A DNA stretch of 64,000 bases, taken from Sandaracinaceae bacterium (GTDB lineage Bacteria > Myxococcota_A > Polyangia > Polyangiales > Sandaracinaceae). The notes beneath the pieces are model-generated. The model made no database searches. It saw nothing but the letters and a program-made list of their open reading frames with translations, and was not told the origin of the DNA. Within the stretch, counting starts at the first letter, position 1, and each line of letters opens with the position of its first letter. Where the stretch lies: positions 1 to 64,000 of the forward strand of contig JAHBWG010000019.1 of NCBI GenBank assembly GCA_019637095.1, read 5' to 3'. Below are positions 3,432-53,189 of the stretch, piece by piece. Both the position numbers and the translations under genes were made by a program.

Positions 3432-7139
<3,708 letters not shown>

Positions 7140-7789: not shown

Positions 7790-8995
7790 TCAACGTCGGG
7801 GGACGGCGAGCGCCGTCACGAGCTGCGGCGGGTCGCCGTGCTCGACGCCCAAGACGAAGTAGCCGCACGGGCCCGGCGCGATCGCGACGGTCTGGGGGCT
7901 CGCGCCGGTGACCGACCGCAGATCCCCGACGAACGCGCGCGTGGCGCCGTGGAAGTCTGCGCGTCCCGTGGCGCTCGCGTAGAGGCCGTAGCCGCCGAGC
8001 GCCGGGTGCGACGCGAGGTCGACGTCGGACGGCATGCCCCCGACGGGCCCGGAGAACCCGCTCGTGGGCGTGCCGTCGTCGCGCACGCGCTGGAGCACGA
8101 CGCGCAGGCCGACGTCGTCGAAGAGGAACGAGCCGAGCACGAGCGCGCCGAGCACGCCGGACGCGCGCTCGACGGCGATCGCGGGGGCGTCGGGTAGCTC
8201 GATCGGCGGCAGCGCGACGCCGTCGGCCGGGCCGATCACGGTGCCGAGCTCGTCGAAGCGGAACAGGCGCGCCGCGTCGGGCGCGGTGCGCACCACGAGG
8301 TAGCTCTGGCGGCGATCGGGGTCGGCGGCGAGCGCCGCCGCGTACCCTCCGAGGCGGCGCCACGCCGCGAAGCCCGCCGGGCCCGCGGTGCCCACGGTGA
8401 CGCCGTCGGCCTCGGCGTAGGCGACGACCCAGCCCGCGCCGTCGAACGCGGGCCGCGCCAGGCGCGTGAAGCGCGCGTCGCCGGCCGCCGTGATCCGCGC
8501 GCTCCACCGATCGGCGCCGTCGTAGCCCACGCCGCGCACCTCGATCACCGCGCTCGTGACGTCCAGCGTCGCGAGCGCGAGCTCCGCCTCGCCGGCGCCG
8601 AGCTCCGGCGCGCGCGCGTTCCCGAGCTCGCGCAGCTCGCGCGGCGTCCCGCGTAGGTCGAGCGCGAAGAGCGCGACCCGCGGCAGGTCACCCCGCTCGA
8701 CCTCGAGCGCGAGCAGCGCGCGCTCCCCGTCGCCCGCGGCCGACGGCGCCTGCGCCGACCAGCCCTCGATGGGGTGGCGCGCGTGCGCGGCGATCGTGAA
8801 GCCGATGCCCGTGGGCTCGGGGCAGGCGAGCGGGGTCGCGGCGTCGCGCCCTGCGTCGCGCGCGCCCGCGTCGCGCGTGCCTGCGTCGCGCGCGCCCGCG
8901 TCGGGCCGGTCGTGCGCGAGCCCGGTGCGCGACCCGCAGCCCGCGGCGAAGAGGGCCAGCGCCAGCGATCCGAGGGCGCGCTTCGATCGGCTCAT
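7790..8995 (-). CDS. Lipoprotein with Asp-Ala-Gly repeat linker
   Basis: 401 residues. The signal peptide ends in LFAAGC (lipobox). It is followed by a linker of repeated DAGARDAGTRDAG-type units, written in DNA as near-tandem repeats at about 8850-8910, and then a roughly 350-residue beta-rich domain with repeated short strands and W/Y-G patterns that suggests a beta-propeller. No catalytic residues were recognised. It lies 16 bp downstream of the lipoprotein gene ending at 9012, so the two are probably co-transcribed. The Asp-Ala-Gly linker after the lipid anchor is a recurrent surface-lipoprotein feature in this window. Confidence 0.72.
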   Translation of the reverse strand: MSRSKRALGSLALALFAAGCGSRTGLAHDRPDAGARDAGTRDAGARDAGRDAATPLACPEPTGIGFTIAAHARHPIEGWSAQAPSAAGDGERALLALEVERGDLPRVALFALDLRGTPRELRELGNARAPELGAGEAELALATLDVTSAVIEVRGVGYDGADRWSARITAAGDARFTRLARPAFDGAGWVVAYAEADGVTVGTAGPAGFAAWRRLGGYAAALAADPDRRQSYLVVRTAPDAARLFRFDELGTVIGPADGVALPPIELPDAPAIAVERASGVLGALVLGSFLFDDVGLRVVLQRVRDDGTPTSGFSGPVGGMPSDVDLASHPALGGYGLYASATGRADFHGATRAFVGDLRSVTGASPQTVAIAPGPCGYFVLGVEHGDPPQLVTALAVPRR

Positions 8996-27520: not shown

Positions 27521-29623
27521 TCACACCACGCGGCGGGTGTCGAGGGCGTAGCGGGAGAGCGCCGCGCGGGGTGGGGCGACCATCGGGGCGAGCGCCCCGT
27601 GCGCCGGCTCGACGACGAAGCGCTCCGCCCGGCGGCGCGCGGCCTCCGCGTCGTCGGCGGGCAGGCCCGGGTAGACGCCGCCGCCCGGGATCCACGCGTG
27701 CACCGAGACGTGCACCGCGTCCTCGGGCCCGCGCAGGTCGAGCGCGAGCGGGTCGAGCGGCGCGAGATCGGGGTGCAGGCCCGGGCTCGGTGCGAAGCTG
27801 CGGTAGCGCACGCCGAACACCGCGGCGACGCCGCGGCGGCTCTGGTGCAGGATCATCGGCAGCCGATGGCTCGCGCCGTTCAATCGCACGCCGACTTGCA
27901 CCCGGTGGAGCTCGGGCCCGACGAGCCGCAGCTCGAGCCGCGTCGTGGACGAGTCGACGAGCCGGCTCGTCCCCGCCTCGCGCGAGAGGTCGCCGACGAG
28001 CGGCCAGTGCTCGATCGCGCGGCGCACCTCGAGCCGGACGCCGCCGTCGAGCGCGGCGACGCCGACCACGCGGTGCGCGTCGTCGGCGAGCTCCGCGACG
28101 AGCGGCGCGCCCAGGCCGAAGCCCTCGCGCCCGAGCTCGTCGAGCACGTCGTCGAGGTCGAGCGCCAGGAAGAACGGGAGCGCGAAGCGGTCGTGCAGGT
28201 CGGCGCCGTGATCGATCAAGCCGATCGGGTACGGCCGCGCGGCGAGCCGCGCGAGCACGGCGCGGAAGAGCGCGGCGCGCGCCGCCTCGTGGGCGGGGCT
28301 CGGCGCCTGGCGCAGCGCGCGCAGCTCGACGAGCCCGAGCCGACCGCGCTCGCCGATCCAAGGGCTCCACAGCTTCTCGACGTTGACCTCGGACCGGTGC
28401 GTGTTGCCGAAGCGGTCCGTCAAGAGCGGGGCGAGCGCGCCGGCGAGGCGCTCCGGGGAGGGCGCCTCCGCGCGCGCGAGCCGATCGAGCGCGACGGCGA
28501 GCTCCTCGAAGCTCTCGCGCGCTTGCTCGTCGGGCCGCACCGCCTGGCCGGAGCCGCCGACGGCGCGGCCCGCGAAGAAGTACGACAGGCTCGGGTGCCG
28601 CGAGAGGTACGCGACGAGCCGAGGGAGCAGGTGCGGGTGCGCGAAGAACGGGCTCGCTTCGGGCCGTGGGCCGCCGAACGTGAGGTGCCCGCCGCCGCCC
28701 GAGTCGGTCACCTCGCCGTTGTACTGGCGTCGCGCCGGCGAGAGCTCGGCCGCGGCCGCCGCCGCGTGGATCGCGCGCGAGGCGTGGTGGAGCTCCGTCG
28801 CGCTCCGGCACGGGGCCATGTTCACCTCGACGACGCCGGGGTCGGGCGTGACCGTGGTGAACGCGACGCGATCGTCGACCGGCGGCGGGTAGCCGCGGAG
28901 GATCAGCGCGTCGAGCGGGAGCGCGCGCGCCGCCGCGGCGACGACGCCGAGGAAGCCGACGAACAGATCCACGCTCTCGAAGGCGGGCAGCTCGAGCGCG
29001 ACGTGTCCGTCCTCGCTGCCGAGCGCGACGAGGCGAGCGCCTCGCGCGGCCACCGGATCGACGAGCCCTCCCGGCGGGATCGGGCGACCCTCGAGCGGCG
29101 GGCGCGAGAGGAGCGCCGCGTCGGCCTCGCCGAGCACGAGCCGGTGGGGCAGCGGCCCCGGGACGTCGAGTGCCTTGGCACCGAGCGCCTCGACCAGCGC
29201 GTCGCGGAGCGCGCGCGGGTCTCCGCCGCCTGACGGCGCGTCGAGGCACGCGGGATCGAGCGGCCCGTCCCAGAGGGGGACCCCGCTGCGCAGCGCGTAG
29301 ATCCCGAAGCTCCAGCGCGGCGCCGGCTCGCCCGGGTACTGCCGGCCGAGCGTTCGCACGAAGGCTTGCCCCTCTCTGCGCAGCGCCCGCGCCAGCGCCG
29401 CGCCCCGCGCGCGCTTGCCGTCGCCGTCCGCCGCGCCGAGCCACCCCGGCGCGCTGGACGCCGCGTCGGTGAACGTCGGCTCCGCACCGAGCCAGATCAC
29501 CAGCCGCGCCGCGGCGAGCGCGCGGTCGTGCGCGAGGAGCGCGTCGTCGAAGGCGTCCACCGTGCGCGCCCGGATCGCACGATCGCCCGCGCGACGCAAC
29601 GTCGAGGGGACGATCCTCGTCAT
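27521..29623 (-). CDS. Stand-alone DUF2126 protein (amidoligase-like)
   Basis: 700 residues. It aligns by eye with the C-terminal part of the next gene (27% or so in places): AEPTFTD / GEPTWTS, LGRQYPGEPAPRWSF / [25 protein letters not shown] / [10 protein letters not shown] and DSGGGGHLTFGGP / [13 protein letters not shown]. That part is DUF2126, which comparative studies have grouped with glutamine-synthetase-fold COOH-NH2 ligases; I take that placement from memory. This paralog lacks the transglutaminase domain and has Gly in place of Asn in GGGNHL. It is probably cytosolic. The start codon lies inside a repeated motif at 29602-29728. Confidence 0.78.
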   Translation of the reverse strand: MTRIVPSTLRRAGDRAIRARTVDAFDDALLAHDRALAAARLVIWLGAEPTFTDAASSAPGWLGAADGDGKRARGAALARALRREGQAFVRTLGRQYPGEPAPRWSFGIYALRSGVPLWDGPLDPACLDAPSGGGDPRALRDALVEALGAKALDVPGPLPHRLVLGEADAALLSRPPLEGRPIPPGGLVDPVAARGARLVALGSEDGHVALELPAFESVDLFVGFLGVVAAAARALPLDALILRGYPPPVDDRVAFTTVTPDPGVVEVNMAPCRSATELHHASRAIHAAAAAAELSPARRQYNGEVTDSGGGGHLTFGGPRPEASPFFAHPHLLPRLVAYLSRHPSLSYFFAGRAVGGSGQAVRPDEQARESFEELAVALDRLARAEAPSPERLAGALAPLLTDRFGNTHRSEVNVEKLWSPWIGERGRLGLVELRALRQAPSPAHEAARAALFRAVLARLAARPYPIGLIDHGADLHDRFALPFFLALDLDDVLDELGREGFGLGAPLVAELADDAHRVVGVAALDGGVRLEVRRAIEHWPLVGDLSREAGTSRLVDSSTTRLELRLVGPELHRVQVGVRLNGASHRLPMILHQSRRGVAAVFGVRYRSFAPSPGLHPDLAPLDPLALDLRGPEDAVHVSVHAWIPGGGVYPGLPADDAEAARRRAERFVVEPAHGALAPMVAPPRAALSRYALDTRRVV

Positions 29624-29726
29624 CTCGTCATTCTCGGCGGCATCGAGGGACGACCCTCGTCATCTCGTCATTCTCGGGGGGCGCGCGACGAGCATCACGA
29701 AATGACGAAATGACGGGATCGTCCCC

Positions 29727-29728
<2 letters not shown>
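29602..29728. repeat. Tandem and inverted repeat between the two DUF2126 genes
   Basis: A 35-36 bp unit occurs at 29602-29637 and again at 29643-29677 in the same orientation, with two differences (one indel, one substitution). A third, inverted and diverged copy lies at about 29697-29728. Arms GAGGGGACGATCC (29604-29616) and GGATCGTCCCCTC (29716-29728) are exact complements, so the whole 127 bp can fold back. The core contains repeated ATGACGA. It covers the start codon of gene 27521-29623 and the stop of gene 29727-32996, so it could be a translational hairpin, an operator array or a miniature insertion. Confidence 0.7.
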
Positions 29729-32996
<3,268 letters not shown>

Positions 32997-35636: not shown

Positions 35637-36656
35637 TCAGGGCGTGACGAGCGTCGCGGCGACCGCGTCGATCTCGAGCGCGATCGAGATCCCCTCGCAG
35701 AAGCCGTCCGAGTCGAGATCGAGGTCGGCGAGCTGCTCGGCGATCGCCTCGACGGTCGCGGTGTCGACGGGCGGCTCGACGTTCAGCGACTCGATCGTCG
35801 CGGGCACGTCCTCGCGCCGCACGTGCCCGGTCATCAGGCCCGCCTCGAGCCGCGTCTCGCTCGCGCGCCCGGCGATGCGCAGGCCGGACAGCTCGATGTG
35901 CAGCGTCCCGCCGTCGCTCGCCGGGATGCGGAGCGAGAAGCTCCCGCCGGGCGTGTGGAGGTAGCCGCCGCGCAGGCTCGCGCCGCGCAGCTCGGTCCGC
36001 GGCCGCCCCTCGATCAGCGACTCGGGGTGGATCCGAAACGTCTGCCCCGCCGCGAGCAGCATCAGGCTCCGGCCGTCGATCACCGCCGGCTCGAGCGCGA
36101 GCGCCGCCGTCGGCTCGACGCGGAAGACCGCGACGTCGACGCCGCCGTCGTCGATCGGGTGCCCGATGCGCGAGATCCGGATCGCGTGGAGCGCCCGCCC
36201 GCGCGCGAACGACGCGAGGAGATCCGCGTTGAAGTCGACCGCGTCGTTGAGCGCGCGGATCGCGGTGAGGATCAGCGGCGACTGGTTGTCGACGCCCGCG
36301 GTCGCGAGGTAGCGGGCGGGCGCGACCCAGTCGACGACGTGGCAGCCCAGCGCGTCGCTCGTCGAGGTGGTGACGCGCTGGTCGAGGTCCATCCCGGCGA
36401 CCTCGCGCGAGCCCGTCGGTGGCATCTCGGGGAAGCGCGCGTAGCGGACCAGGAGCGTCCAGACCTCGTGCCCCTCGACGTCCGCCTGCGCGTCCGGGCG
36501 CGCCGCGTCGGGCGGCGGGGCCGCGTCCATCGTGACGCCCGCGTCGCGCGTCGGGGTCGGGGCGCACGACGCGACGGAGAGCGCGACGGAGAGGGCGAGC
36601 GCCGCGAGCAGCCGGCGAGCCCAGAGGACACGAGCGCTCGCGCGGCGTCCCGACAC
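35637..36656 (-). CDS. Lipoprotein with C-terminal EF-hand-like loop (intact copy A)
   Basis: 339 residues from GTG 36656. The signal peptide LLAALALSVALSVASC has a lipobox and is followed by a short Asp-rich linker. The body is one long beta-rich domain ending in DLDLDSDGFCEGISI, an EF-hand-like calcium loop. All but its last ~40 codons lie within the 3,379-bp repeat, so copy B (49580-50641) has the same body but a foreign C-terminus. TACGAT ends 8 nt before GTG 36656. The family was not recognised. It is divergent from the next lipoprotein gene. Confidence 0.72.
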   Translation of the reverse strand: MSGRRASARVLWARRLLAALALSVALSVASCAPTPTRDAGVTMDAAPPPDAARPDAQADVEGHEVWTLLVRYARFPEMPPTGSREVAGMDLDQRVTTSTSDALGCHVVDWVAPARYLATAGVDNQSPLILTAIRALNDAVDFNADLLASFARGRALHAIRISRIGHPIDDGGVDVAVFRVEPTAALALEPAVIDGRSLMLLAAGQTFRIHPESLIEGRPRTELRGASLRGGYLHTPGGSFSLRIPASDGGTLHIELSGLRIAGRASETRLEAGLMTGHVRREDVPATIESLNVEPPVDTATVEAIAEQLADLDLDSDGFCEGISIALEIDAVAATLVTP

Positions 36657-36664
36657 GACGACGG

Positions 36665-36670
36665 ATCGTA
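36665..36670 (-). promoter_or_regulatory. -10 box (TACGAT) for lipoprotein copy A
   Basis: The hexamer ends 8 nt before GTG 36656; the duplicate lies at 50650-50655. Confidence 0.4.
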
Positions 36671-36822
36671 GCAGCCGGCGCGCGCCGCGCGCGGGGTGCG
36701 CGCTCTTTTCTCGTGGCCGGCGCGCCGGACGCTCGGAGCGGGCACCGCGCCGAGCCGCCCGCCCGGCATTCGAGGGCACGCCACGGCCGGCTCGTGGAAC
36801 GCCGCTTGCGGAACGCGACTCC

Positions 36823-38319
36823 GTGCGGATCCCCGTCTCGCTGTTCCTGATTGCGTGCTCCCCCGTCGACCCAGGTCTCGTCGACGCGGGCGCGTCTGCC
36901 ACGCTCGATGGAGGCGCCGTCGAGCGCGACGCGGCCGCGACCGACGCCGCGTCCCCAGCCGCCGACGCCGGGCCGCCCCGCGATGTGCCGCCGGGCTGCC
37001 CGTTCGGTGGGCGCCCGCCGGTCGACGACGCGCCGCTCGCGCACGCGTCCGGTCGCACCGAGACCGTTCGCGCCGGCGGCTTCGTCGACGAGTACCTCTA
37101 CGACGCGACGGACCGCTTCAAGATCGGCATCCGCCGCGAGTGGGGCGGCAGCGTCGTCTTCTTCGGCGAGGGCGGCGGCCGCCCCGGCGCCAACCCGACG
37201 AACACGATCGACGCCGCCGACACCGGCCGCGAGGTCCAGATCGCCCTCTACGATCCGGACCGCCACCTCCAGGGCTGCGCGTGGGACGCGTCGTGCGCGA
37301 GCGGGGGCATGGCGTGCCCCGAGCAGATCCGTTACCTGGGCTGGAACCCGGTGCAGGGCGGCAACCGCTGCAACCAGGGCTCCGCCGTCGATCGCGTCGC
37401 GGTGAGCGGCGGCGGGCTCGTCGCGACGGTCGTCCCGCTCCAGTGGAACCCGGACTGGGCGGCGCGCGACTGCACGACCGACACCTGCCGCGGCGCGGGC
37501 GCGCGCGCGACGAGCGACGTGCGCGTGACGCAGACCGCCCGCTTCGTGCGCCCGCGCGTCGTCGAGCTGCGCTACCGCATCGAGAACCTCGCCGACGTCG
37601 ATCACCGCCCGACCGCGCAGGAGCTGCCGACGATGTACTCCTCCTACGGCCGCGACGGATCCCAGGATCTGTGGCGCCTGATGGACCCGAGCGGCGCGCA
37701 GATCCCGATCGACACGCCGACCGGGGGCGACGGGTTCTTCTACGAGAACTTCACCGCGAGCGGCCCCTGGGTCTCGCTCCAGAACGACGACCTGAGCCAC
37801 GGCGTCGGGATCCTGTACGAGAACGGGCTGCGCGACTTCCAGGGATGGCAGCAACGATCCTTGCCATTCAACAACGTCCGCTCGCGCGTCGTCTTCGGCC
37901 TGCCCGCGCGCGGCGTCGTGCACGCGCGCGCCTACCTGCTGCTCGGCTCGTTCGCGACCATCGCGGCCGAGGCGGCGAGCGTCTTGGCGGCGATGCCGCC
38001 GTTCGGGTGGCTCGACGGACCCGCCGCCGAGGTCGGCGCCGGCCCGACCCCGATCCACGGCTGGGCGCTCGACAACCGCGGCGTCACCGCCGTCGAAGCG
38101 CGCATCGACGAGCGCGTGACCGTCCCGCTCTCGTACGGCGCCTCGCGGCCGGACGTGTGCCTCGCGTGGCCGGGCTATCCGCGCTGCGACGCGGTGGGCT
38201 TCGCGGGCAGCCACGACTTCGGGCCGCCGACCGCCTGCCCGCACCTCGTCGAGATCATCGCGACCGACGCCGACGGGAACCGGCGCACGATCGCGGAGCG
38301 CCTCGTGACCGTCCGCTGA
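36823..38319 (+). CDS. Large lipoprotein (copy A), possible carbohydrate-related
   Basis: 498 residues from GTG 36823. A short signal (VRIPVSLFLIAC) with a lipobox is followed by an Asp/Ala linker. The body resembles a galactose-mutarotase-like/beta-sandwich surface protein (YLYDATDRFKIGIRREWGG, QIRYLGWNPVQGGNRCNQGS, RFVRPRVVELRYRIENL, MYSSYGRDGSQDLWRLMDPSG) and ends in a smaller beta domain. A role in binding or recognising sugars is plausible but not shown. It precedes the LysR gene by 18 bp, so they may be co-transcribed. The same gene occurs at 50808-52304. Confidence 0.7.
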   Translation: MRIPVSLFLIACSPVDPGLVDAGASATLDGGAVERDAAATDAASPAADAGPPRDVPPGCPFGGRPPVDDAPLAHASGRTETVRAGGFVDEYLYDATDRFKIGIRREWGGSVVFFGEGGGRPGANPTNTIDAADTGREVQIALYDPDRHLQGCAWDASCASGGMACPEQIRYLGWNPVQGGNRCNQGSAVDRVAVSGGGLVATVVPLQWNPDWAARDCTTDTCRGAGARATSDVRVTQTARFVRPRVVELRYRIENLADVDHRPTAQELPTMYSSYGRDGSQDLWRLMDPSGAQIPIDTPTGGDGFFYENFTASGPWVSLQNDDLSHGVGILYENGLRDFQGWQQRSLPFNNVRSRVVFGLPARGVVHARAYLLLGSFATIAAEAASVLAAMPPFGWLDGPAAEVGAGPTPIHGWALDNRGVTAVEARIDERVTVPLSYGASRPDVCLAWPGYPRCDAVGFAGSHDFGPPTACPHLVEIIATDADGNRRTIAERLVTVR

Positions 38320-38337
38320 GCCGCGAGGAGGACGTCC

Positions 38338-39495
38338 TTGGAGCACGCGCGCCTGAACCGAGTCTGGAACTGGCTCCCCGCGTTCCGCGCGGTGGCCGAG
38401 ACCGAGCACCTGCCCACGGCGAGCCGCTTGCTCTGCGTGACGCCCTCGGCGCTCTCGCGGACGGTCAAGCAGCTCGAGGCCGAGCTCGGCCAGCCGCTGT
38501 TCGTGCGGGTCGGCCGGCGCCTCGAGCTGAGCCCCGCCGGTCACGAGCTGCTCGGCGCGCTGCGCGAGTCGATGAGCCGGATCGATCACGGCCTCGCGAC
38601 GGTGAGCGCCGCCGAAGCGAGCGGGGTCATCCGCGTGAGCGCGCCCGAGCCGTTCGCGACCGCGTTCGCGCTCGGCGCGCTCGAGCGCCTCGTCGCGTCG
38701 CACCCGCGCGTCGTCCCGCAGCTCGTCTCGCTGTCGCCGTCGGACGCGTGCGCGTGGGTCGCCGGAGGACGGCTCGATCTCGCGGTGATCGACGCGCCGC
38801 GCGACCGGGGCTCGCTGTCGACCGAGCGGCTCGGCGCGCTGCGCTACGGCGTCTACTGCGGAGAGGGTCACCCGCTCTTCGAGGTGCCCCGTCCCTCGCT
38901 CGCCGACCTGTCGAGCCACGCCTTCGTCGCGCTGCCGCGCGAGGCGGCGCACCCGTGGCCCGAGGCGCTCGAGCGGCGCGTCGCGATGATCGTCTCGGGG
39001 ATGCACCTCGCGGTCGAGGCGTGCGCGACCGGGCGCTACCTCGCGCGCCTCGCCGACGTCGTCGCCGAGCGCCACCGCGGCGTCGCGCTTCGTCGCCTCC
39101 CGATCGAGCTGCCCGGCGAGCACGTCGCGTACGCGCCTCCTGTTCGACGGGCGGCCGACGTCGGGGCAGCCGTACCTCGCGCGCGCGTTCTTCCCCTACC
39201 CCCGCGCGGCCGTGTTCGAGGCGTTGCAGCGTCCGTCCTCTGCGCTCACGTGGACGAAGTCGACGTCCGCGATCGCCTCCCAGGCCGCGGCCGCGTCCGC
39301 CATCGCGCGCCGCCCAGTCGCCGGCCGGAGGCGTTCTCGCGTTGCCCTGACCGTAGGCGAAGCCCACGCGCACCCGACCCGAGGCGTCGCGCCCGAGGAA
39401 CCACACCTCGAGCCCGTGGCCGCCGGCGCGCGGCGTCACCACCACCTCCGGGGCCGAGGCGCCCTGGCGAGCGAAGTTCCCCACGTCCGCGGTGA
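38338..39495 (+). pseudogene. LysR-type regulator, copy A, truncated and fused to unrelated tail
   Basis: A GAGGAGG Shine-Dalgarno precedes TTG 38338. Residues 1-265 match copy B exactly: HTH WLPAFRAVAETEHLPTASRL (interrupted wing VTPSALSRTVKQLEAELGQPL) and the effector domain up to PGEHVAYA. At 39134 identity ends, and a roughly 120-residue Arg/Ala-rich tail with no LysR similarity continues to 39495. The last ~23 residues of the effector domain are lost. DNA binding might survive, but the fold is probably unstable. The intact version is 52323-53189. Confidence 0.82.
39139..39310. pseudogene. Two rearranged fragments of the metalloprotease gene
   Basis: 39208-39310 matches 53939-54041 inside the metalloprotease gene with two mismatches, same orientation. 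39139-39200 matches 53875-53936, the adjacent piece, with one mismatch but inverted. So a 62-bp part of the gene has been flipped in place. No open frame joins the two. They sit exactly at the left island junction. Confidence 0.85.
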
Positions 39496-49740: not shown

Positions 49741-50641
49741 TCGCGGTGTCGACGGGCGGCTCGACGTTCAGCGACTCGATCGTCGCGGGCACGTCCTCGC
49801 GCCGCACGTGCCCGGTCATCAGGCCCGCCTCGAGCCGCGTCTCGCTCGCGCGCCCGGCGATGCGCAGGCCGGACAGCTCGATGTGCAGCGTCCCGCCGTC
49901 GCTCGCCGGGATGCGGAGCGAGAAGCTCCCGCCGGGCGTGTGGAGGTAGCCGCCGCGCAGGCTCGCGCCGCGCAGCTCGGTCCGCGGCCGCCCCTCGATC
50001 AGCGACTCGGGGTGGATCCGAAACGTCTGCCCCGCCGCGAGCAGCATCAGGCTCCGGCCGTCGATCACCGCCGGCTCGAGCGCGAGCGCCGCCGTCGGCT
50101 CGACGCGGAAGACCGCGACGTCGACGCCGCCGTCGTCGATCGGGTGCCCGATGCGCGAGATCCGGATCGCGTGGAGCGCCCGCCCGCGCGCGAACGACGC
50201 GAGGAGATCCGCGTTGAAGTCGACCGCGTCGTTGAGCGCGCGGATCGCGGTGAGGATCAGCGGCGACTGGTTGTCGACGCCCGCGGTCGCGAGGTAGCGG
50301 GCGGGCGCGACCCAGTCGACGACGTGGCAGCCCAGCGCGTCGCTCGTCGAGGTGGTGACGCGCTGGTCGAGGTCCATCCCGGCGACCTCGCGCGAGCCCG
50401 TCGGTGGCATCTCGGGGAAGCGCGCGTAGCGGACCAGGAGCGTCCAGACCTCGTGCCCCTCGACGTCCGCCTGCGCGTCCGGGCGCGCCGCGTCGGGCGG
50501 CGGGGCCGCGTCCATCGTGACGCCCGCGTCGCGCGTCGGGGTCGGGGCGCACGACGCGACGGAGAGCGCGACGGAGAGGGCGAGCGCCGCGAGCAGCCGG
50601 CGAGCCCAGAGGACACGAGCGCTCGCGCGGCGTCCCGACAC
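49580..50641 (-). pseudogene. Lipoprotein copy B, C-terminus replaced at island junction
   Basis: From GTG 50641 to 49741 it encodes the same lipoprotein as 35637-36656. At 49741 identity stops and the frame runs 54 more codons into island DNA, ending at 49580 with Arg/Ser-rich sequence. The roughly 40 C-terminal residues of the intact protein, including the EF-hand-like loop, are missing. It may still be made and lipidated, but it is probably not functional. Confidence 0.8.
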
Positions 50642-50649
50642 GACGACGG

Positions 50650-50655
50650 ATCGTA
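50650..50655 (-). promoter_or_regulatory. -10 box (TACGAT), duplicate of 36665-36670
   Basis: The hexamer ends 8 nt before GTG 50641 of the truncated lipoprotein gene. Confidence 0.35.
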
Positions 50656-50807
50656 GCAGCCGGCGCGCGCCGCGCGCGGGGTGCGCGCTCTTTTCTCGTG
50701 GCCGGCGCGCCGGACGCTCGGAGCGGGCACCGCGCCGAGCCGCCCGCCCGGCATTCGAGGGCACGCCACGGCCGGCTCGTGGAACGCCGCTTGCGGAACG
50801 CGACTCC

Positions 50808-52304
50808 GTGCGGATCCCCGTCTCGCTGTTCCTGATTGCGTGCTCCCCCGTCGACCCAGGTCTCGTCGACGCGGGCGCGTCTGCCACGCTCGATGGAGGC
50901 GCCGTCGAGCGCGACGCGGCCGCGACCGACGCCGCGTCCCCAGCCGCCGACGCCGGGCCGCCCCGCGATGTGCCGCCGGGCTGCCCGTTCGGTGGGCGCC
51001 CGCCGGTCGACGACGCGCCGCTCGCGCACGCGTCCGGTCGCACCGAGACCGTTCGCGCCGGCGGCTTCGTCGACGAGTACCTCTACGACGCGACGGACCG
51101 CTTCAAGATCGGCATCCGCCGCGAGTGGGGCGGCAGCGTCGTCTTCTTCGGCGAGGGCGGCGGCCGCCCCGGCGCCAACCCGACGAACACGATCGACGCC
51201 GCCGACACCGGCCGCGAGGTCCAGATCGCCCTCTACGATCCGGACCGCCACCTCCAGGGCTGCGCGTGGGACGCGTCGTGCGCGAGCGGGGGCATGGCGT
51301 GCCCCGAGCAGATCCGTTACCTGGGCTGGAACCCGGTGCAGGGCGGCAACCGCTGCAACCAGGGCTCCGCCGTCGATCGCGTCGCGGTGAGCGGCGGCGG
51401 GCTCGTCGCGACGGTCGTCCCGCTCCAGTGGAACCCGGACTGGGCGGCGCGCGACTGCACGACCGACACCTGCCGCGGCGCGGGCGCGCGCGCGACGAGC
51501 GACGTGCGCGTGACGCAGACCGCCCGCTTCGTGCGCCCGCGCGTCGTCGAGCTGCGCTACCGCATCGAGAACCTCGCCGACGTCGATCACCGCCCGACCG
51601 CGCAGGAGCTGCCGACGATGTACTCCTCCTACGGCCGCGACGGATCCCAGGATCTGTGGCGCCTGATGGACCCGAGCGGCGCGCAGATCCCGATCGACAC
51701 GCCGACCGGGGGCGACGGGTTCTTCTACGAGAACTTCACCGCGAGCGGCCCCTGGGTCTCGCTCCAGAACGACGACCTGAGCCACGGCGTCGGGATCCTG
51801 TACGAGAACGGGCTGCGCGACTTCCAGGGATGGCAGCAACGATCCTTGCCATTCAACAACGTCCGCTCGCGCGTCGTCTTCGGCCTGCCCGCGCGCGGCG
51901 TCGTGCACGCGCGCGCCTACCTGCTGCTCGGCTCGTTCGCGACCATCGCGGCCGAGGCGGCGAGCGTCTTGGCGGCGATGCCGCCGTTCGGGTGGCTCGA
52001 CGGACCCGCCGCCGAGGTCGGCGCCGGCCCGACCCCGATCCACGGCTGGGCGCTCGACAACCGCGGCGTCACCGCCGTCGAAGCGCGCATCGACGAGCGC
52101 GTGACCGTCCCGCTCTCGTACGGCGCCTCGCGGCCGGACGTGTGCCTCGCGTGGCCGGGCTATCCGCGCTGCGACGCGGTGGGCTTCGCGGGCAGCCACG
52201 ACTTCGGGCCGCCGACCGCCTGCCCGCACCTCGTCGAGATCATCGCGACCGACGCCGACGGGAACCGGCGCACGATCGCGGAGCGCCTCGTGACCGTCCG
52301 CTGA
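50808..52304 (+). CDS. Large lipoprotein (copy B)
   Basis: The same 498-residue protein as at 36823-38319, from GTG 50808; the entire gene and its upstream region lie inside the repeat. It is followed after 18 bp by an intact LysR gene, so this copy keeps the original downstream context. The two copies make the cell carry two doses of the product. Confidence 0.7.
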   Translation: MRIPVSLFLIACSPVDPGLVDAGASATLDGGAVERDAAATDAASPAADAGPPRDVPPGCPFGGRPPVDDAPLAHASGRTETVRAGGFVDEYLYDATDRFKIGIRREWGGSVVFFGEGGGRPGANPTNTIDAADTGREVQIALYDPDRHLQGCAWDASCASGGMACPEQIRYLGWNPVQGGNRCNQGSAVDRVAVSGGGLVATVVPLQWNPDWAARDCTTDTCRGAGARATSDVRVTQTARFVRPRVVELRYRIENLADVDHRPTAQELPTMYSSYGRDGSQDLWRLMDPSGAQIPIDTPTGGDGFFYENFTASGPWVSLQNDDLSHGVGILYENGLRDFQGWQQRSLPFNNVRSRVVFGLPARGVVHARAYLLLGSFATIAAEAASVLAAMPPFGWLDGPAAEVGAGPTPIHGWALDNRGVTAVEARIDERVTVPLSYGASRPDVCLAWPGYPRCDAVGFAGSHDFGPPTACPHLVEIIATDADGNRRTIAERLVTVR

Positions 52305-52322
52305 GCCGCGAGGAGGACGTCC

Positions 52323-53189
52323 TTGGAGCACGCGCGCCTGAACCGAGTCTGGAACTGGCTCCCCGCGTTCCGCGCGGTGGCCGAGACCGAGCACCTGCCC
52401 ACGGCGAGCCGCTTGCTCTGCGTGACGCCCTCGGCGCTCTCGCGGACGGTCAAGCAGCTCGAGGCCGAGCTCGGCCAGCCGCTGTTCGTGCGGGTCGGCC
52501 GGCGCCTCGAGCTGAGCCCCGCCGGTCACGAGCTGCTCGGCGCGCTGCGCGAGTCGATGAGCCGGATCGATCACGGCCTCGCGACGGTGAGCGCCGCCGA
52601 AGCGAGCGGGGTCATCCGCGTGAGCGCGCCCGAGCCGTTCGCGACCGCGTTCGCGCTCGGCGCGCTCGAGCGCCTCGTCGCGTCGCACCCGCGCGTCGTC
52701 CCGCAGCTCGTCTCGCTGTCGCCGTCGGACGCGTGCGCGTGGGTCGCCGGAGGACGGCTCGATCTCGCGGTGATCGACGCGCCGCGCGACCGGGGCTCGC
52801 TGTCGACCGAGCGGCTCGGCGCGCTGCGCTACGGCGTCTACTGCGGAGAGGGTCACCCGCTCTTCGAGGTGCCCCGTCCCTCGCTCGCCGACCTGTCGAG
52901 CCACGCCTTCGTCGCGCTGCCGCGCGAGGCGGCGCACCCGTGGCCCGAGGCGCTCGAGCGGCGCGTCGCGATGATCGTCTCGGGGATGCACCTCGCGGTC
53001 GAGGCGTGCGCGACCGGGCGCTACCTCGCGCGCCTCGCCGACGTCGTCGCCGAGCGCCACCGCGGCGTCGCGCTTCGTCGCCTCCCGATCGAGCTGCCCG
53101 GCGAGCACGTCGCGTACGCCGCGCATCGCGCGGGGGCGTGCGGCGCCGTCGCCGCCCTCCTGCGCGAGCTGCGCGCCGCGTTCGCGTGA
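52323..53189 (+). CDS. LysR-family transcriptional regulator (intact copy B)
   Basis: 288 residues from TTG 52323 with GAGGAGG upstream. The winged HTH (WLPAFRAVAETEHLPTASRL, VTPSALSRTVKQLEAELGQP) is followed by a type-2 periplasmic-binding-like effector domain (IRVSAPEPFATAFALGALER, WVAGGRLDLAVIDAP) that ends properly at AALLRELRAAFA. This is the complete version of the truncated copy A. The target is unknown; the lipoprotein gene 18 bp upstream is the closest candidate. Its 3' end overlaps the antisense tail of the metalloprotease reading frame. Confidence 0.88.
   Translation: MEHARLNRVWNWLPAFRAVAETEHLPTASRLLCVTPSALSRTVKQLEAELGQPLFVRVGRRLELSPAGHELLGALRESMSRIDHGLATVSAAEASGVIRVSAPEPFATAFALGALERLVASHPRVVPQLVSLSPSDACAWVAGGRLDLAVIDAPRDRGSLSTERLGALRYGVYCGEGHPLFEVPRPSLADLSSHAFVALPREAAHPWPEALERRVAMIVSGMHLAVEACATGRYLARLADVVAERHRGVALRRLPIELPGEHVAYAAHRAGACGAVAALLRELRAAFA

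Follow-up and report, generated by a model that had tools for sequence, protein, structure and literature searches.

What is the fold-back repeat array that stands between two DUF2126 genes in a Sandaracinaceae genome, and does it serve the genes that it separates? The window analysed here is a stretch of 64,000 nucleotides, in which both genes are read on the minus strand. A preliminary description of it, made from the letters alone, had noted two direct copies and one inverted, diverged copy of a 35-bp unit with exact 13-bp outer arms, and had proposed that this structure could regulate translation of the DUF2126 gene or bind a regulator.

The layout of the repeats was confirmed. The two direct copies, at 29607-29640 and 29647-29680, are 94% alike at a spacing of 40, the third copy is inverted, and the 13-bp inverted outer arms are present and exact at 29604-29616 and 29716-29728. 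The repeat unit is real, but its length of 35 bp did not hold: compared across the rest of the genome the unit is 28 nt long, and its consensus is GGGGACGATCCTCGTCATYTCGTCATTC (Table 1). A search of the window with ATGACGAGATGACGA, allowing up to 2 mismatches, gave 4 matches where 0.16 were expected, all of them inside the array. As had been anticipated, the region from 29590 to 29740 folds strongly as RNA on both strands, with -73.8 kcal/mol on the plus strand (z -5.0) and -80.8 kcal/mol on the minus strand, which is the coding strand here (z -6.3); none of 200 shuffles was as good on either strand. Elsewhere in the window we observed a direct duplication of 3379 bp (35756-39134 and 49741-53119), 100% identical and 13,985 bp apart, whose reading frames include what looks by eye like a LysR-like protein; it is either a recent event or an assembly artefact.

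Table 1. Features at the junction of the two DUF2126 genes (positions in the window).
Feature	Position	Strand	Remarks
Three-unit array (direct, direct, inverted)	29606..29726	.	Repeat comparison and fold z -5.0 / -6.3
28-nt unit, copy 1	29606..29633	+	Head GGGG at 29606; 0 edits against the consensus used
28-nt unit, copy 2	29645..29672	+	Tandem duplicate of copy 1, 40-nt period; 2 edits
28-nt unit, inverted copy	29699..29726	-	Head directly after the stop of the upstream gene (distance 0); 2 edits
Stop codon TGA, upstream DUF2126 gene	29727..29729	-	
Upstream gene, 1089 aa	29727..32996	-	Bact_transglu_N, Transglut_core and DUF2126
Downstream gene	27521..29560	-	C-terminal part of DUF2126 only; probable start GTG 29560-29558

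The array had been said to cover the stop codon of one gene and the start codon of the other. At the stop, the inverted unit abuts the TGA (29729-29727), and it is the 13-bp arm that shares 2 nt with the codon. At the start, the longest downstream frame does begin inside a unit, at an in-frame ATG (29623-29621), but homology in this reading starts only at residue 24. Because of this, the codon usage and the start in relatives, the real start is probably the in-frame GTG at 29560-29558, which the array does not cover. In G001 and G006, two relatives without the unit, an ATGA overlap joins the two DUF2126 genes, and MIDDALDTLD is the beginning of the downstream protein; the window residues that match this beginning adjoin the GTG at 29560. 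The upstream protein of the window stops 8 residues sooner, after the LDLR that is common to the relatives, and the array comes next. A third genome, G015, was considered for the same comparison and set aside: the downstream gene has a homologue there, but just upstream of it the reading frames encode a different protein that is not DUF2126. Because the genes overlap as ATGA in the two relatives without the unit, we think that the array was probably inserted at the place of this overlap. The simplest history would be a single insertion into or near the overlap that split the two DUF2126 genes, followed by a tandem duplication of 40 nt. The resulting hairpin in the mRNA may uncouple translation or alter the stability of the message, and in this way the array could, as a by-product, influence how the downstream gene is translated or the fate of its mRNA.

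The unit is dispersed in the genome. A 14-nt core matched 99 places in the 9,253,515 bases, and the reversed control matched 0. A 23-nt core with at most one mismatch matched 119 places in the same genome, 0 in the reversed control and 0 in 37 relatives, which included G005, G008, G016 and G025 and did not include G045, G053 and G067. The unit was found neither in exact scans of genome_contigs and viral_contigs, from which its own and very near genomes may be absent, nor in a distant search of plasmids, and a literature search, with most subscription papers outside its reach, gave no report of this repeat. We examined 70 loci (510 kb) and found 136 units in 85 clusters, with 78 units exact. 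These loci cover all 99 places of the 14-nt core and not every place of the 23-nt core (C4:1343 is one such place), and three of them (L102-L104) were chosen for their Y1_Tnp genes and not for units; positions are known for part only of the 119 matches, as also of the 131 matches to the repeat type of G045 described below.

Of the 85 clusters, 44 are units standing alone. The pairs are head-out, with GGGG facing outward, in 23 clusters, direct in 11 and head-in in 2, and 5 clusters are larger. Neighbouring head-out units within 35 nt of each other were seen 27 times, with gaps of 5-31 nt, exactly 15 nt in 6 cases and exactly 30 nt in 8. These 27 are inverted repeats able to fold back, the RNA folding itself having been run on the window array only. 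The spacers of the head-out pairs have no evident common sequence, and those of 26-31 nt, considered as possible selected hairpins, gave a mean z of -0.74 (n = 11 spacers). The unit begins with GGGG and ends with ATTC. Directly before the head stands A in 47% and C in 38% of cases (n = 112 units), and a single unit has a weak internal palindrome with a 5-bp stem. Five contigs of this genome (C11, C28, C30, C126 and C157) end within or just beside units, which is expected if repeats break the assembly. On contig C152, two small genes that resemble by eye a HepT/MntA-type toxin-antitoxin pair lie between two single units (L124:15476-16579).

The placement of the units relative to genes was analysed for 82 clusters, after three lone matches with 6-7 edits (L095, L104 and L111) had been removed; genes were called by a codon-usage script, which places their boundaries approximately. 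No called gene contained any of the 82 clusters (10-nt margins), although some clusters reach into gene ends, by 42 nt at most. Of the clusters, 74 lay between two called genes and 8 at the ends of loci or contigs. Junctions with a cluster were convergent in 32 of 74 cases, and those free of units in 50 of 321 (odds ratio 4.1, p = 8e-7). In 26 of 105 cases an outward outer head started at -3 to +2 relative to a stop codon; over 2000 runs that placed heads at random in intergenic DNA, the mean was 1.04 and the maximum 6. When all units facing a gene end were counted, stop-adjacent heads numbered 26 of 75 and stop-adjacent tails 2 of 80, and six further tails contain the stop codon. The preliminary description had reasoned that many hits at random sites with no folding would indicate a scattered simple repeat. 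The unit is indeed dispersed, yet this picture does not apply, because the sites are non-random and the head-out pairs are inverted repeats.

These results bear on the proposal that the array is a dedicated control element of the DUF2126 gene or the site of a regulator, which found no support, since the unit forms 82 clusters in the loci examined, of which the array in the window is one. If selection had kept a cis-acting hairpin here to control how the second DUF2126 gene is translated, or if the array were a regulator's operator, the strong fold of the coding strand and the possible start codon inside the array would be in keeping with it. But copies of the unit stand at many junctions unrelated to this one, the array is absent from G001 and G006, whose genes overlap directly, a simple scan of 29400-30000 gave no promoter-like or terminator-like site, and the window has no match in Rfam. 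We therefore regard this explanation as unlikely and, because the unit is dispersed, reject a dedicated regulatory hairpin as the main reading.

On contig C150, two head-out units (L122:7542-7569 and 8501-8528) enclose a gene encoding 297 aa (L122:7564-8457, minus strand). This gene is the single match in its own genome, and the downstream unit supplies its stop codon. We predict that this gene encodes an HUH/tyrosine (Y1) transposase with a DnaA-like C-terminus. The protein scored 11.8 bits against Pfam Y1_Tnp, below the curated cut-off of 23, and 28 bits against NCBIfam REP_Tyr_transpos, below the cut-off of 80; 15 of 17 homologues match REP_Tyr_transpos at E <=0.001, and H60, H62 and Y120 are invariant in the 17 aligned homologues. 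A search of solved structures with the single transposase sequence found none. When the alignment profile was used, the N-terminal part matched TnpArep 4er8 (E 6e-4) and the C-terminal part, at profile positions 179-291, matched DnaA 2z4r (E 3e-5). An AlphaFold model of the transposase (pLDDT 87, pTM 0.64) had 4er8 as its best solved match (E 3.9e-7, TM-score 0.71 by target length), followed by IS200/IS605 transposases, and helices are predicted in the DnaA-like C-terminal region of the model.

Flanking by itself is weak evidence, because clusters of the unit also stand on both sides of unrelated genes, for instance in L086 and L124, and it is the pattern across genomes, given below, that carries the argument. 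Two other genes of the same genome were considered and rejected as the driver. An IS200-type TnpA gene on contig C124 has a unit about 150 bp away, which we take as coincidence because the other two strong Y1_Tnp loci (L031 and L032) have no unit within 8 mismatches in their 3.4-kb loci. A protein with a weaker Y1_Tnp match, on contig C62 (L034:232-1317), is encoded on an 8.5-kb contig without a unit. We observed in passing that this 361-aa protein resembles a diverged REP transposase (REP_Tyr_transpos 39 bits, cut-off 80).

The HUH-like gene between two units also speaks against the units being MITEs, that is, short inverted-repeat elements, of a DDE-type insertion sequence unrelated to that gene. 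The 27 head-out neighbours with their preferred gaps of 15 and 30 nt would suit such elements, but 44 of the 85 clusters are single units and the pair spacers share no evident sequence, and we consider this explanation very improbable.

Homologues of the transposase were found in 29 of the 115 genomes searched, its own genome included. The search returned 30 homologue loci, and 17 of these were inspected for flanking repeats, the weaker matches (L141-L153) being left out. Matching GGGACG-headed repeats stood on both sides of the gene in 13 of the 17 loci, the repeats of the relatives having bodies different from the unit of the window's genome; the other four had no downstream repeat, two of them being cut by contig ends. 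In a comparison of 15 loci, which leaves out L140 and L154 (partial; near-identical to L130), the distance from the upstream GGGACG repeat to the start was 52-223 nt, and 13 loci have this repeat again in the vicinity. Of 53 control genes of the window's genome, 17 had the GGGACG hexamer upstream and 0 had a recurring repeat there. The distance between repeat bodies follows the distance between proteins (Mantel r 0.49, p = 0.0001, n = 15), a correlation in which shared ancestry is still included.

Genome specificity was examined in ten genomes, two of which (G001 and G006) have no transposase match, and the counts leave out the repeat types of G016 and G053. The type shared by G005 and G025 gave 68 matches in G005, 46 in G008, 23 in G025, 2 in the window's genome and 0 in the other six; the 2 are one-mismatch matches to variants of the window genome's own unit. 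A second type was found 5 times in G005 and 7 times in G008, and only there, whereas the type of G067 gave 82 matches and that of G045 gave 131, each in its own genome only. Judging from these matches, the repeat types are confined to one or few genomes. G008 carries its 46 copies of the G005/G025 type, yet no gene of the matching type was among the matches in this assembly, which is 84% complete; this counts against the pairing. In G005 (L175 and L181) and G008 (L194) we also observed stretches resembling gene arrays, in which repeat pairs with a fixed 60-nt start spacing recur every ~1-1.6 kb.

This distribution, with 0 copies in 37 relatives and a different body beside the homologous transposase in each genome examined, makes it equally improbable that the units serve a chromosome-organising or mRNA-stabilising factor as binding sites and are maintained at gene ends by selection, with the transposase incidental, even though 78 of the 136 units are exact and the units are placed at the 3' ends of genes.

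A possible sign of movement was seen between G005 and G008, which are ~98% identical in most of their long shared stretches. G008 has a three-unit cluster of the second type, arranged direct-direct-inverted, that G005 lacks at the corresponding place: G005 has 50 bp there and G008 has 223 bp (query L207). This is a difference of presence and absence without clean borders, and it concerns the repeat of another genome. For a second query (L193), no counterpart of the flanks was found in G005. Beside the cluster in L207 (~5890-5930, contig C462 of G008), a stretch of ~30 nt recurs at many places of both genomes, G005 and G008, and apparently belongs to another dispersed family.

Among known systems, GTAG REPs or REPINs with RAYTs were reportedly treated by Nunvar in 2010 and by Bertels and Rainey in 2011. 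The repeats described here resemble them as short dispersed units in the 3' regions of genes, with head-out dimers and one unit-flanked HUH transposase gene, but the unit has no GTAG tag, its internal palindrome is weak (5-bp stem), and the protein is far below the REP_Tyr_transpos cut-off. CGTC REPs, according to Di Nocera et al. (2013; PMC3733652), are mostly head-out dimers with 8-9 bp stems and no dedicated transposase; our repeats share the short dispersed form and the head-out dimers, but have no stem of 8-9 bp and do have a transposase gene between units. The same paper describes TIRtrons, or TIRYTs, as RAYT-like genes flanked by inverted repeats (TIRs) instead of GTAG REPs. Some TIRs share the motif GGGGWSAS and others are unrelated to it, some belong to moderately abundant repeat families with dimers or clusters, and the productivity of TIRYT transposases may be lower than that of RAYTs (PMC3733652). 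Quentin et al. (2018; PMC6006769) assign most TIRYTs to TnpAREP subclass 2.1, whose C-termini are of the helix-turn-helix or DnaA-like kind; section 20 of that paper reports no REP-like sequences near subclass 2.1 genes.

It is the TIRYT/TIRtron that our system resembles in having a Y1/HUH gene flanked by inverted repeats that are not GTAG REPs, a predicted His-x-His motif and catalytic tyrosine (H60, H62 and Y120, with the modelled fold matching 4er8), a putative DnaA-like C-terminus as in subclass 2.1, GGGG-headed repeats, and repeats dispersed as singles, dimers and clusters, as in some published cases. It differs in the tag: GGGGACGA in the window's genome departs from the published GGGGWSAS at positions 7 and 8, and GGGGACGC or GGGGACGG in the relatives departs at position 7. 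Because other published TIRs are unrelated to this motif, the mismatch is compatible with membership. It differs also in copy number, since 23 to 131 core matches per genome is high in an approximate comparison with the published families, and in having a different body in most genomes examined. As far as sequences can tell, the system fits the TIRYT/TIRtron kind with a changed tag, a high copy number and mostly genome-specific bodies.

Taken together, these data make it very probable that the array is a three-copy cluster of a dispersed, REP-like repeat of the TIRYT/TIRtron type, paired with a transposase, that landed in an operon. The transposase would recognise its own unit as single-stranded DNA and move it. 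We propose tentatively, and with more doubt than confidence, that across the order related HUH transposases and their repeats may form mutually exclusive pairs, in which the shared catalytic domain would read an invariant GGGACG head and the variable body, ~20 nt long, would fit the cognate enzyme only, giving each genome a private single-strand system of repeat spreading that would set units at stop codons and re-wire overlapping operons. Unlike in the published picture of TIRYTs and subclass 2.1, the related enzymes here accompany abundant, genome-specific repeats with one common head. If the pairing is functional, natural pairs of enzyme and repeat would provide a direct test of recognition and repeat movement, and the array in the window points to a way in which a repeat can disrupt the translational overlap of genes in an operon.
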